Assembly: GCF_021184025.1 (NCBI RefSeq)
Contig: NZ_CP036537.1
Span: 1,860,001-1,924,000, forward strand
Reading direction: 5' to 3'
Length of the DNA stretch: 64,000 bases
Origin: Rhodopseudomonas boonkerdii
GTDB taxonomy: Bacteria; Pseudomonadota; Alphaproteobacteria; Rhizobiales; Xanthobacteraceae
Shown here: one piece after another, positions 17,991 through 50,402 of the stretch
How the letters are laid out: every line of letters starts with the position of its first letter
Numbering within the stretch: position 1 is the stretch's first letter
The notes under the pieces: model-generated
What the model saw: the letters and a program-made list of their open reading frames with translations, nothing else
Databases searched by the model: none
What the model was told of the DNA's origin: nothing
Translations under genes and position numbers: made by a program

Positions 17991-18111
17991 GGCGATTCGG
18001 CGGGATTCGCCGAAGCCGCCAATCAAATATCCGTCTTTTTCGTCATGGCCGGGCTTGTCCCGGCCATCCACGTCTGTTTGAAGGAGTCAGGTGCCCGACG
18101 CTGCGTCGGGC
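17991..18111. repeat. Hairpin plus dispersed palindromic repeat before murC
   Basis: Three stem-loops lie in a row. TTCGGCG/CGCCGAA (17996-18014) may end the MFS transcript. ATGGCCGGG/CCCGGCCAT (18045-18067) lies within a CGTCATGGCCGGG element of the type scattered in Bradyrhizobium-like genomes. GCCCGACG-CTG-CGTCGGGC (18093-18111) completes the set. The stretch marks the right edge of the APH-LysR-MFS module. murC begins 20 bases later, so its promoter or read-through must cross it. Confidence 0.6.
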
Positions 18112-31237: not shown

Positions 31238-31283
31238 ACTCGTCATTCCGGGGCGCGCCGAAGGCGCGAACCCGGAACCTCAT
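31238..31283. repeat. Left palindromic repeat of the GIY-YIG unit
   Basis: This 46-base element begins ACTCGTCATTCCGGG and ends CCCGGAACCTCAT. It is itself an imperfect palindrome (TTCCGGG with CCCGGAA, inner GCGCG pairing) and lies five bases after the recN stop, so it may also act as the recN 3' hairpin. The same sequence recurs inverted at 31613-31656 on the other side of the GIY-YIG gene. Confidence 0.85.
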
Positions 31284-31297
31284 AATGCCTGCACTCT

Positions 31298-33816
<2,519 letters not shown>

Positions 33817-46278: not shown

Positions 46279-48831
46279 TCAGGCGCGCTCCACGAAACTG
46301 TCGACGACCTTCTTCTCGCCGGCCTTGTCGAAGGCGATGGTGAGCTTGTTGCCGTCGATCTTGGTGACGCGGCCGTAGCCGAATTTCTGATGGAAGACGC
46401 GGTCGTCCAACGAGAAGTCGGATTCGATGCCGGTGGATTTGGCCACCAGCTCGCCCTCGATCACCATCGGCCTCTTGCGCGACGCGCTGCTGCCAAAGGA
46501 CGAAAACGGCGATTGGCTCTCGTTGAAGCCGCCACCGCCGCTGCGGCCGCGCTGCTGCTGCGCGCGCTGCCAGCCCGGGGTCGAATAGCTGGATCCGAAG
46601 GCTTCGAGATTGTCGAAGCGCGACGAGCCGTAGCCGCCGGCGCCGCCCCAGCCGCTGCCACCCTTGGATTCCGTGATCTCGACATTCGCCGCCGGCAGCT
46701 CGTCCAGGAAGCGTGACGGAATCGTCGTGCTCCAGGTGCCGTGAATGCGGCGATTGGTGGCAAAATACAGCTTTGCCCGCTTGCGGGCGCGCGTGATGCC
46801 CACATGGGCGAGGCGGCGTTCCTCCTCGAGGCCCGCGCGGCCCTGCTCGTCGAGGGCCCGCTGATGTGGAAACAGGCCTTCCTCCCAGCCGGGCAGGAAC
46901 ACATTGTCGAATTCGAGTCCCTTGGCCGAATGCAGCGTCATGACCGACACGGCGTCTTCGTCCGCCGCGCCCTCGCGGTCCATCACCAGCGAGATGTGTT
47001 CGAGGAAGCCCTGCAGGTTCTCGAATTCCTCCATGGAACGCACGAGTTCTTTCAGGTTCTCGAGCCGCCCGGCGGCGTCCGCCGAGCGGTCCTTCTGCCA
47101 CATCTCGGTATAGCCGCTCTCGTCGAGCACGACTTCTGCAAGTTCGGTGTGCGGGACCACTTCGCTCTGTTTGCGCCAGCGTTCGAAACTCGTCATCAGG
47201 TCGCGCAGCGAGCCGCGCGCCTTCGGCTTCATCTCGTCGGTCTCGATCACCTGCCGTGCGGCTTCGGAGAGCGGAATGCGGCGGCGGCGCGCATGGTCGT
47301 GCAGCATCTGCACGGTGGCATCGCCGAGCCCGCGCTTCGGCACATTGACGATGCGCTCGAAAGCGAGATCGTCAGCCGGCGAATTGATCACGCGCAGATA
47401 GGCGAGGGCATCGCGGATTTCCGCGCGCTCATAGAAGCGCGGGCCGCCGATCACGCGATAGGGCAGGCCGAGGGTGACGAAACGATCTTCGAATTCGCGC
47501 ATCTGGAACGAGGCGCGGACGAGGATGGCGATGTCGTTGAGCTTGTGGCCCTCGCGCTGCAGCTGCTCGATCTCCTCGCCGATGCCGCGGGCTTCCTCTT
47601 CGGAATCCCATGCGCCGGTCACGGTGACTTTCTCGCCGTCCTCGTCCTCGGTGCGCAGCGTCTTGCCGAGCCGGCCCTCGTTATGCGCGATCAGATGCGA
47701 GGCGGCGGCGAGGATGTGGCCCGTGGAGCGATAATTGCGCTCCAGCCGGATCACCTTGGCGCCGGGAAAATCATGTTCGAAGCGCAGGATGTTGTCCACT
47801 TCGGCGCCGCGCCAGCCATAGATCGACTGATCGTCATCGCCGACGCAGCAGATGTTGCGTTGCTCCCTCTCCCCGCTTGCGGGGAGAGGGTCGGGGTGAG
47901 GGGCTGCCTCCGCGAGCGCAGCAGGTGGAGAGTCCCCCTCAACCGGATTGCTTTGCAATCCGACCTCTCCCCGCACGCGGGGAGAGGTGACTACTCCGCC
48001 TGAGTTCTGTGACAGCAGTCGCAGCCAAAGATACTGCGCGACGTTCGTATCCTGATACTCGTCGACAAGGATATATTTGAACCGCGCCTGATACGACTTC
48101 AGCACATCCGGCTGTTCGCGGAACAGGCGGATGCATTCCAGCAGGAGATCGCCGAAGTCGGCGGCGTTCAGGATCTTCAGTCGCTCCTGATAGTCCTTGT
48201 AGAGCTTGCCGCCCTTGCCGTTGCCGAACACCGCGGCCTCACCTGACGGCACCTGCGCCGGCGTCAGGCCGCGATTCTTCCAGCCGTCGATCAGGCCGGC
48301 CAGCATGCGCGCGGGCCAGCGCTTGTCGTCGATATTTTCCGCGGACAGGAGCTGCTTGAGCAGGCGGATCTGGTCGTCGGTGTCGAGCACCGTGAAATTC
48401 GACTTGAGCTGCACCAGCTCGGCATGGCTGCGCAGGATGCGACCGCCGATGGAGTGGAAGGTGCCGAGCCACGGCATGCCTTCCACCGCCTGGCCGAGCA
48501 TGATGCCGAGGCGGTGCTTCATCTCGCGCGCGGCCTTGTTGGTGAAGGTCACCGACAGGATCTCGCCCGGCCGGGCGCGGCCGGTGGAAAGGATATGCGC
48601 GATGCGCGAGGTCAGCACCTTGGTCTTGCCGGTGCCGGCGCCGGCGAGCACCAGCACGGGCCCATCCAGCGTCTCGACGGCTTCGCGCTGTTCGGGATTG
48701 AGATTGCTCAGATAGGTCGGTGCCGGCGCAGCAGCGGCACGGGCGCGCGCAGCAATGCCGCCCGCCGCGGGCTGATAGGCGGGGAGGTCGTTGGTAGGCA
48801 CTTTGCGGGCGTCGGTCATGCGAATCGTCAT
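46279..48831 (-). CDS. uvrD: ATP-dependent DNA helicase UvrD/PcrA with in-frame palindromic insert
   Basis: This superfamily 1A 3'-5' helicase acts in nucleotide excision and mismatch repair. The start at 48831 (MTIRMTDARK) gives 850 residues. A start at 48819 is equally possible; the frame upstream is not homologous-looking. Motif Q/I is NPEQREAVETL...AGAGTGKT (to residue 70), motif Ia is VTFTNKAA, motif II is VDEYQDTN (256-263) and motif III is GDDDQSIYGWRGAE (331-344). Motifs IV-VI include VMTLHSAKGLEF. The C-terminal 170 residues contain the usual linker and a Tudor-like end. About 48 residues between motifs II and III (277-324) derive from a palindromic repeat and have no counterpart in the family. 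Confidence 0.93.
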   Translation of the reverse strand: MTIRMTDARKVPTNDLPAYQPAAGGIAARARAAAAPAPTYLSNLNPEQREAVETLDGPVLVLAGAGTGKTKVLTSRIAHILSTGRARPGEILSVTFTNKAAREMKHRLGIMLGQAVEGMPWLGTFHSIGGRILRSHAELVQLKSNFTVLDTDDQIRLLKQLLSAENIDDKRWPARMLAGLIDGWKNRGLTPAQVPSGEAAVFGNGKGGKLYKDYQERLKILNAADFGDLLLECIRLFREQPDVLKSYQARFKYILVDEYQDTNVAQYLWLRLLSQNSGGVVTSPRVRGEVGLQSNPVEGDSPPAALAEAAPHPDPLPASGEREQRNICCVGDDDQSIYGWRGAEVDNILRFEHDFPGAKVIRLERNYRSTGHILAAASHLIAHNEGRLGKTLRTEDEDGEKVTVTGAWDSEEEARGIGEEIEQLQREGHKLNDIAILVRASFQMREFEDRFVTLGLPYRVIGGPRFYERAEIRDALAYLRVINSPADDLAFERIVNVPKRGLGDATVQMLHDHARRRRIPLSEAARQVIETDEMKPKARGSLRDLMTSFERWRKQSEVVPHTELAEVVLDESGYTEMWQKDRSADAAGRLENLKELVRSMEEFENLQGFLEHISLVMDREGAADEDAVSVMTLHSAKGLEFDNVFLPGWEEGLFPHQRALDEQGRAGLEEERRLAHVGITRARKRAKLYFATNRRIHGTWSTTIPSRFLDELPAANVEITESKGGSGWGGAGGYGSSRFDNLEAFGSSYSTPGWQRAQQQRGRSGGGGFNESQSPFSSFGSSASRKRPMVIEGELVAKSTGIESDFSLDDRVFHQKFGYGRVTKIDGNKLTIAFDKAGEKKVVDSFVERA
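47860..48003. repeat. Palindromic repeat inserted in frame within uvrD
   Basis: Two hairpins, CCTCTCCCCGC-TTGC-GGGGAGAGG (about 47866-47889) and CCTCTCCCCGC-AC-GCGGGGAGAGG (about 47964-47988), with a spacer containing GGATTGCTTTGCAATCC, form a repeat unit of the kind usually found between genes in this bacterial group. Here it lies inside the coding frame and is translated into a peptide including PHPDPLPASGERE. Its length of about 144 bases is a multiple of three and leaves the helicase frame intact. Confidence 0.85.
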
Positions 48832-49060
48832 CTGCCCACACTGGCACGGCGGGTCTCGAAAGGGAGCCTTGTTAACAGGGATTGGGCTCATATAGGGGCA
48901 AGTGGAGCCCCCCGGTAGAGTTATCCCCGCATGGGAACCCGGAACAGCGACATTGCGGCGCTTGACTTGGCCTGCCACTCGGCTACCCAGCAGGGGTACG
49001 GGACGACCCGCACCTTCGACGACCATTCCGGGACGGCCCGGCCCGTTCAAAGGGGCCGGC

Positions 49061-49810
49061 ATGGCGAACCCGATCAAGCAATTCGACATCATCCCGCTCG
49101 TCCGTCTTGGCGAGATTGGCGGCCACGACCTCGTCGTTACGAATTCGTCGGCCTTCATGCTGCTCACGGTGGCGCTGGCGGCAATGTTCGTGCTGCTCGG
49201 CAGCCGAAAGCGAGCCCTGATTCCCGATCGCTGGCAGTCGGTGGTCGAATTGCAGCATGAATTCATCCTCAAGACATTGCGCGACATCACCGGCGATCAT
49301 GGCCTGCGGTTCTTCCCGCTGGTGTTTTCGCTGTTCGTCTTCATCCTGTTCGCCAATCTCATCGGCATGCTGCCCTATTCCTTCACGGTCACCAGCCATC
49401 TCATCGTGACCTTTGCGATGGCAGCTCTGGTCTTCGCCGTGGTGACGATCTACGGCATCGCCAAACATGGGCTGCGCTTCTTCCGGCTGTTCATGCCGCC
49501 GGATGTGCCGATGGCCCTCGCGCCGTTCATCGTTCCGATCGAGGTGATCTCTTATCTGTCGCGGCCCGTGAGCCATTCGGTGCGTCTGTTCGCGGTCATG
49601 CTGGGCGGGCACATCACCCTGAAGGTGTTTGCCGGTTTCGTCGTCGGCCTGTCGGGGATCGGCGCCATCGGTATCGTGGCGGCGATCCTGCCGTTGATGA
49701 TGACCGTGGCGATCACGGCGCTGGAAATCCTGATGGCCTTCATCCAGGCTTATGTCTTTACGATGCTCACTTGCATGTATCTGAACGACGCGCTGCATCC
49801 CGGCCACTGA
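49061..49810 (+). CDS. atpB: Isolated ATP synthase F0 subunit a (AtpB) paralogue
   Basis: This 249-residue protein has five to six membrane segments and clear F0 subunit a motifs: [17 protein letters not shown] (98-114), [12 protein letters not shown] with the essential Arg175 (E. coli R210), and [17 protein letters not shown] (221-237). The start at 49061 has AAAGGGG upstream. In normal clusters it is followed by atpE and atpF; here the next gene is sugE beyond a repeat, and no other F0 gene is in the window. After the essential Arg the usual RLFxNM reads RLFAVM, so the conserved Asn is Val179. This suggests a second, diverged copy, or a relocated gene. Confidence 0.85.
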
Positions 49811-49860
49811 GAAGCGGTGGTGTGGGCTATCGCATGGGATTGCTGCAAGTAGCCCGCGGC

Positions 49861-49971
49861 CATCCTTCGAGACGCGCGCAAGGACGCGCTCCTCAGGATG
49901 AGGGGAAAGTATGTGGCACGATAGAAGACCCTCATGGTGAGGAGCCCGCGAAGCGGGCGTCTCGAACCATG
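49861..49971. repeat. Inverted palindromic repeat between atpB and sugE
   Basis: The left arm (49861-49904, CATCCTTCGAGACGCGCGCA...) and right arm (49929-49971, ...GCGTCTCGAACCATG) are inverted copies of about 43 bases, differing at roughly one base in five. Each arm also has its own short hairpin. The sequence type is common between genes in Bradyrhizobium-like genomes. It lies between the atpB stop and the riboswitch of sugE and could end the atpB transcript. Confidence 0.8.
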
Positions 49972-50016: not shown

Positions 50017-50063
50017 ACGAAGGGGACGACCTCTTCGTATCTCACAAGCTCAGGACGGCCTGA
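50017..50063 (+). promoter_or_regulatory. Guanidine-II (mini-ykkC) riboswitch before sugE
   Basis: Two hairpins with ACGR tetraloops lie in tandem, as in the mini-ykkC class. The first is a 9-bp stem ACGAAGGGG/CCTCTTCGT with loop ACGA at 50026-50029; the second is a 5-bp stem TCAGG/CCTGA with loop ACGG at 50055-50058. An 11-base linker separates them. The second ends seven bases before the GGAG ribosome site (50070-50073) of sugE. In this class guanidinium binding stabilises kissing of the loops and frees the ribosome site. The downstream gene is a guanidinium exporter family member, which fits. Confidence 0.85.
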
Positions 50064-50081: not shown

Positions 50082-50402
50082 ATGGCTTGGCTTTATCTGT
50101 TCGTAGCCGGCATTCTCGAAATCGGTTGGGCTTATTCGATGAAGAAGTCGGAAGGCTTCACCATTCTGGTGCCGAGCGTGATCACGATTGTCGCGATGAT
50201 CGCCAGCTTTGCGCTGCTTTCGATCGCGATGAAGACGCTGCCACTGGGGACCGCCTATACGATCTGGACCGGCATCGGCGCTGTCGGCGCTTTTGTGGTT
50301 GGTATCGTCGTGCTTGGCGAGTCCGCCAATGCGATGCGCCTCGCGGCAGGCACACTCATCGTCGTTGGCATCGTGATGATGAAGCTCTCCACGGTCGATT
50401 AG
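50082..50402 (+). CDS. sugE: SMR-family guanidinium exporter (SugE/Gdx type)
   Basis: This 106-residue protein has four membrane helices and is a small multidrug resistance family member. Glu13 in GILEIGWAYSMK is the shared proton/substrate site. Gly10, Trp16 and Trp62 (TIWTGIGA) are features of the SugE/Gdx branch that exports guanidinium rather than of the EmrE drug branch. It would work as an antiparallel dimer in the inner membrane. The upstream tandem ACGR hairpins support guanidine induction. GGAG lies eight bases before the ATG. A dispersed palindromic repeat begins 13 bases after the stop. Confidence 0.92.
   Translation: MAWLYLFVAGILEIGWAYSMKKSEGFTILVPSVITIVAMIASFALLSIAMKTLPLGTAYTIWTGIGAVGAFVVGIVVLGESANAMRLAAGTLIVVGIVMMKLSTVD

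Follow-up and report, generated by a model that had tools for sequence, protein, structure and literature searches.

Palindromic elements that lie in frame inside coding genes, repair genes included, are known from Rickettsia (RPE) and Wolbachia (WPE) (PMC4224334; PMC3733652). In the second of these reports, Di Nocera, De Gregorio and Rocco (2013) described intragenic GTAG and CGTC REPs, which are present in Bradyrhizobium and Rhodopseudomonas palustris. The same paper lists REP-decorated repair proteins, a UvrD/REP helicase among them, and equates two CGTC dimer families with RPE-6 and RPE-4 (PMC3733652). REPs at approximately the same site are reported there for recB of two Xanthomonas species only, the sites in the other repair genes being different (PMC3733652).

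The repeats in uvrD that we describe here, starting from a 64,000-nucleotide stretch of the Rhodopseudomonas boonkerdii genome (the window), resemble RPE and WPE in being dispersed palindromes that are in frame, free of stops, and located in a conserved gene. They differ in that they occur in another order, and in that at least five families occupy in turn one loop of one gene. The original prediction had drawn a parallel to the Rickettsia elements. This parallel extends to a dispersed in-frame palindrome in a conserved repair helicase, but not to the CGTC tag, which by eye, against the published description of RPE-4 and RPE-6 with their CGTC tag and a stem of 8–9 bp, is absent from the window's own element, family A. 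Two other families, C and D, found in the loops of relatives, carry CGTC/GTC plus ATTCCGGG or ATTGCCGGG stems, and by eye resemble the CGTC REP dimers (PMC3733652). Unlike the REPs in the available part of that paper, the uvrD loop combines a serial occupation by several families with a putative frame and charge filter. Our search of the freely accessible literature found no paper reporting that several repeat families fill one UvrD loop serially, nor one reporting such a combination. In-frame repeats in genes are a known kind; what is new, in that we did not find it in the literature searched, is the serial multi-family hot spot with its likely filter. The MITEs within open reading frames of Coxiella burnetii are short non-autonomous inverted-repeat elements, which have reportedly been considered for protein evolution (PMC5896051). 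We know of no hot spot shared among them, and they differ from the uvrD repeats, for which no target duplication was found.

The host gene of the insert, uvrD/pcrA (46282..48831, minus strand), encodes an 850-aa protein that contains the UvrD-helicase and UvrD_C domains. These domains and the kinship with solved UvrD/PcrA chains identify it as UvrD/PcrA; a match to the PcrA/UvrD tudor domain was slightly below the cut-off. The loop is delimited upstream by the motif II region LVDEYQDTN (residues 255–263; 48043..48069, minus strand), and downstream by the motif III region GDDDQSIYGWRGAE (residues 331–344; 47800..47841, minus strand). The spacing between the two motifs is 75 residues, compared with 28 in many other Rhizobiales, which leaves approximately 47 extra residues, close to the 48 that had been predicted. 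The ORF also confirms the prediction that the insert preserves the reading frame and contains no stop. In the AlphaFold model of the host protein (mean pLDDT 72, pTM 0.47), residues 279–322, between the helix 264–274 and the strand 326–331, have a pLDDT of about 35, and the motif II–III loop is predicted to be disordered. By sequence comparison, the loop aligns near residues 240–244 of E. coli UvrD. This edge we take, from RecA-type folds, to lie away from the ATP site.

The insert itself is a copy of a dispersed repeat. A profile built from family A copies outside uvrD matches 47864..47988 on the minus strand (125 bp, E = 7.5e-25), slightly tighter than the earlier bounds of 47860–48003. It comprises two perfect 24-nt palindromes, CCTCTCCCCGCTTGCGGGGAGAGG (47866..47889) and CCTCTCCCCGCACGCGGGGAGAGG (47964..47987), with 74 nt between them. 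Together with the presence of further copies in the genome, this confirms the palindromic two-hairpin element that was proposed to lie in frame inside uvrD. Across the 5.63-Mb host genome, the pattern of the 24-nt palindrome was found at 14 sites, compared with none for a reversed control pattern. A BLAST search of the same genome with a 166-base stretch gave 98 matches at E ≤ 1, the query itself counted, and more weakly related copies are scattered genome-wide. At the protein level, family A reads as SPRxRGE...PHPxPLPxxGER. Being multicopy, with a spacer between two palindromes, family A has a REPIN-like layout. A classical RAYT-driven REP was rejected, as PF01797, the Y1 (RAYT) transposase, had no match in the host genome, with 5 of 14 control genomes positive.

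Family A also resembles an RPE-type coding palindrome in being dispersed and in frame in conserved genes, namely uvrD and one ABC ATPase. Among ten further ORFs that span family A copies and were taken for a Pfam scan, which left out others, e.g., in L152 and L159, only one had Pfam domains, a two-domain ABC ATPase. The repeat sits between its two domains (G000:C1:4261344-4261384, L011). Furthermore, peptides in the reading used in uvrD were searched for among 5.8 billion proteins, at lengths near that of UvrD. The family A peptide had 52 matches, of which 27 were UvrD and 17 two-domain ABC ATPases, the rest being three HemY-type proteins, two UvrA, and one each of UvrC, CobN and a PAS kinase. 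Family A thus has a second recurrent in-frame location, the inter-domain linker of this dipeptide/nickel-type ABC ATPase. A search for the insert peptide in other conserved proteins, as suggested with the original prediction, hence found family A in the ABC ATPase and a few others. At UvrD-like lengths, all matches of families B (48/48) and D (62/62) were UvrD.

Other repeats are found close to uvrD. A family B copy, detected by profile, lies downstream of the ATP synthase A-chain gene (49860..49970), and the same family fills the uvrD loop in other species. Copies of families C and D are located elsewhere in the window, at 31241–31286, 31590–31653 and 18040–18085. The region beside uvrD also includes two guanidine-II riboswitch matches on the plus strand, at 48995–49041 (43.5 bits) and 50018–50062 (36.4 bits; cut-off 32). 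One precedes a gene for an SMR exporter (50082–50402), the usual partner of this riboswitch. The other lies directly upstream of the ATP synthase A-chain gene (49061–49810), which seems unusual.

Relatives of the host paint a broader picture. From the host's family, 216 genomes were searched and 211 matched; loci were taken from the better-scoring part, 100 of them beyond the first 30. In total, 234 of the 240 uvrD loci that were read could be parsed, and their loops comprise 214 unique DNA sequences. Because DNA clustering chained most inserts together via their palindromes, we used profiles made from non-uvrD copies only (eight for A, five each for B–E). These five profiles matched 111 of the 214 unique loops (A 30, B 22, C 28, D 18, E 13), and none of 428 core stretches. 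Family assignments by profile agreed with the motif labels in 108 of the 111 loops; six labelled rows had no profile match, and three rows labelled ‘other’ had one. Each family has its own peptide: LRDAxLRxAPQDE...PHPEERG...SKGEA for B, VIPGR...HPGMT for C, SLPGLTRQS...RRPGDD for D, and PSPLxGEG...PSPxRGEG for E. A sixth and rarer family, F (VIPEAAKRLSG), was left out of the profiles. In most of the genomes searched, the scored matches to representative inserts numbered, per genome, 40–90 for B, 11–81 for C, 4–52 for D and 3–62 for E, and the element ends of the uvrD-borne copies agree with those of copies elsewhere in the genomes. Some loops are composite, holding B and D (L266), D twice and C (L258), F and B (L242), B inside C (L289), or a VIPG stub followed by A (L126).

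The uvrD loop is long in 131 of the 137 unique loops of the host's family, with a filling that depends on the species, and without insert in six; 37 of the 137 are long loops without any profile match. The original prediction is incomplete in that the repeat in the window is not an isolated case: among relatives in the family an insert at this place is the rule, often drawn from another repeat family. Unrelated inserts in all family members had been named as evidence against the prediction. The relatives come near to this case, but many of their inserts are dispersed repeats themselves. Acidic peptides unlike the repeats also recur in the loops, such as LADTFD / SLEDTWDEP and DDIPFDIHPDD (among others in L178, L242, L252, L274, L276, L278, L280, L287, L289 and L290). 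These may be short interaction motifs; DDIPF, to our eyes, resembles the end of the SSB tail. Long fillings occur also in other Rhizobiales families, namely in Mesorhizobium, Tianweitania and Aurantimonas (L093, L115, L117, L120, L128), and some of these fillings show an internal repetition (PRGxPAPSGAE).

Outside the host's family, the loop is tight in many Rhizobiales. A class-wide sample took 40 of 100 other matching genomes, half by long ORFs and half by best scores, and 36 of the 40 could be parsed, of which one belongs to the same order and 35 to other orders. In a count that runs one residue longer than for the 75 and 28 above, the spacing was short in all 35 genomes of other orders (29 in 34 genomes, 34 in one), and 34 in the genome of the same order. 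The site is also specific within the gene. When the five profiles were run over whole uvrD ORFs, they matched the loop in 105 and any other place in only 3 of 214, each time the C-terminal linker (L229, L248 and L276). In 135 long ORFs of the family, insertions of at least 15 residues shared by at least three ORFs fell, within the helicase core, into two adjacent loop columns only; the remaining insertion points were the N-terminal end and the C-terminal linker. The latter is itself long and variable, and 59 of the 135 ORFs have at least 15 extra residues at one point of it. The repeats in the C-terminal linker of L229, L248 and L276 are read in other frames, e.g., as LSPGGRGRAEG, thus this linker may tolerate other readings.

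Across species, this one loop is shared by no fewer than five dissimilar repeat families, and the occupant differs between close relatives. Among disjoint pairs of close relatives, 18 had unlike labels at a core DNA identity of 0.897–0.968, and in 17 of them both members were confirmed by profile as carrying different families (core DNA 0.914–0.968). On a FastTree phylogeny of the uvrD core, with the loop excluded, the family label changed a minimum of 52 times over 108 rows, of which 106 carry a single family and two are composite, compared with 57–70 times in 200 shuffles, which indicates weak inheritance and much change. The nearest UvrD relatives of the host (L056–L058, core DNA 0.917–0.934) have a short, unrelated linker of 20 aa instead. 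Neither a clean empty site nor a target duplication was found, the close relatives of the host having other linkers there.

As the same loop is filled repeatedly by unrelated repeats, it looks like a recurrent landing site. We propose that in the Rhizobiales family of the host, dispersed palindromic repeats land recurrently and in frame in the UvrD motif II–III loop, and assign this reading a probability of roughly 0.74. Non-autonomous repeats would be copied into the loop by some mobilising machinery. Copies that introduce a stop or shift the frame, or whose reading is basic, Cys-rich or aromatic-rich, would be purged by selection, and acidic, disordered readings rich in Pro, Ala and Ser would persist, erode, and later be replaced by another repeat. 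The helicase presumably still works because the loop would tolerate changes in both length and sequence.

A hint of such a filter comes from the reading frame. In all five families, the frame used in uvrD yields acidic peptides, with an average net charge of −3.2 to −4.5 and 0.2–1.2 Cys, Trp, Phe or Tyr per loop, whereas the other two frames would have a net charge of +8 to +16 and 2.4–5.7 of these residues. The +1 frame is open in many inserts (A 14/30, B 15/22, C 6/28, D 7/18, E 7/12). The phase of the anchor is uniform in C (24/24), D (11/11), E (10/10) and B (9/9); in A, the anchor of which recurs in the second palindrome, it is 24 to 6. In the same frame, copies elsewhere in the genomes are basic on average, with mean charges of +4.1 for A (n = 79), +4.0 for B (13), +4.8 for C (12) and +1.8 for E (6), compared with −2.2, −4.1, −3.8 and −4.5 for the uvrD copies, in fixed windows after the anchor that may overrun short copies and with related rows treated as independent. 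For family D, with three genomic copies, the difference was not significant (0.3 against 1.7; p = 0.17). These differences suggest that a selective filter on frame and charge acts on the repeats that enter uvrD.

The same data could indicate more than tolerance. A long, acidic, disordered loop might be useful to UvrD, with the repeats serving as handy material for its renewal. The net charge is negative in 106 of the 111 profile-matched loops, across all five families, and in 36 of 47 other long loops, and the rarity of repeats in the C-terminal linker, as well as the prevalence of long loops in the family and the basic mean charge of the genomic copies of A, B, C and E, would fit such a domestication. 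However, the occupants evolve fast and have no sequence in common. Over 27 pairs, the pooled dN/dS was 0.46 for the inserts and 0.07 for the core, a ratio that is lowered by the choice of pairs with at least 65% peptide identity. Moreover, the insert is missing from six of the 137 family loops and from the genomes of other orders. We regard functional domestication as possible but rather doubtful. Its stronger form, that selection keeps the loop filled, that any acidic, disordered repeat reading suffices, and that the renewed segment is a functional component of the helicase, we likewise put forward tentatively. The loop is favoured far above the flexible C-terminal linker. This could reflect either a preference of the insertion process for the loop or a mildly useful long acidic loop.

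The linkers on the sides of the repeats bear on how the repeats came into the loop. Recombination in the conserved flanks might have transferred whole loops, repeat and linkers together, from species to species, so that repeat types recur without fresh insertion. If so, distant species with the same repeat should share linkers, yet the identity of the last five residues in such pairs is 0.18, equal to the background of distant pairs with different repeats. Close pairs with different repeats have 0.35, and close pairs of the same family 0.55. The linkers follow the gene and not the repeat, which argues for arrival in place over whole-loop exchange. In addition, no exchange tract was seen in the flanks: with core distance matched, flank identity did not depend on whether the two members of a pair carried the same family or different ones. 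With no rise in flank identity near the loop in same-family pairs, recombination tracts were rejected as the main cause of the swaps.

Exchange has nevertheless left possible traces. A few distant loops agree end to end, linkers included, as loop transfer would give; those of L075 and L256 have a pS of 0.05 in the insert against 0.39 in the core. The higher linker identity of close pairs with the same family than of those with different families (0.55 against 0.35) also counts against arrival in place. The uniform phase within families, and the uvrD-borne D copies, which are 91–94% identical across three genera, point in the same direction. Furthermore, the B and D copies in uvrD are closer to each other than to the scored genomic copies, so part of their likeness may be due to shared descent. 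Overall, exchange as the general explanation appears unlikely, and we infer independent in-place arrivals of repeats at the recurrent landing site.

It is highly improbable that the gene is non-functional, or that the repeat is removed at the RNA or protein level. Very stable RNA hairpins do lie within the reading frame, the insert folding at −95.1 kcal/mol (z = −7.1 against 200 shuffles). However, the frame is open, as it is in relatives with other repeats, and the core is under strong purifying selection in relatives (pooled dN/dS 0.07). Of the five uvrD matches in the host genome, the three listed include a single near-full-length close homologue, and the other two listed are 29–34% identical, one of them in a 1152-aa ORF. 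A pseudogene backed up by a second uvrD, the case that would have spoken against the original prediction, thus finds no support among these matches. Least probable of all is one old insertion, vertically inherited and diverged past recognition: although most of the family has a lengthened loop and the labels carry some tree signal, the inserts of close relatives belong to different dispersed families with their own element ends, and the close pairs with different repeats contradict purely vertical descent.

Intragenic repeats are generally regarded as rare accidents. In the present case, at least five families, dozens of species, and a turnover between close relatives come together in one loop. 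The uvrD loop thereby offers many natural replicates of how selfish or neutral DNA becomes protein, and of what loops tolerate. It also allows one to ask whether frame and charge act as a survival filter, and whether repeats are drawn to certain genes. Should the loop turn out to be useful, it would represent a protein segment that is set by its composition only, and renewed from repeats.
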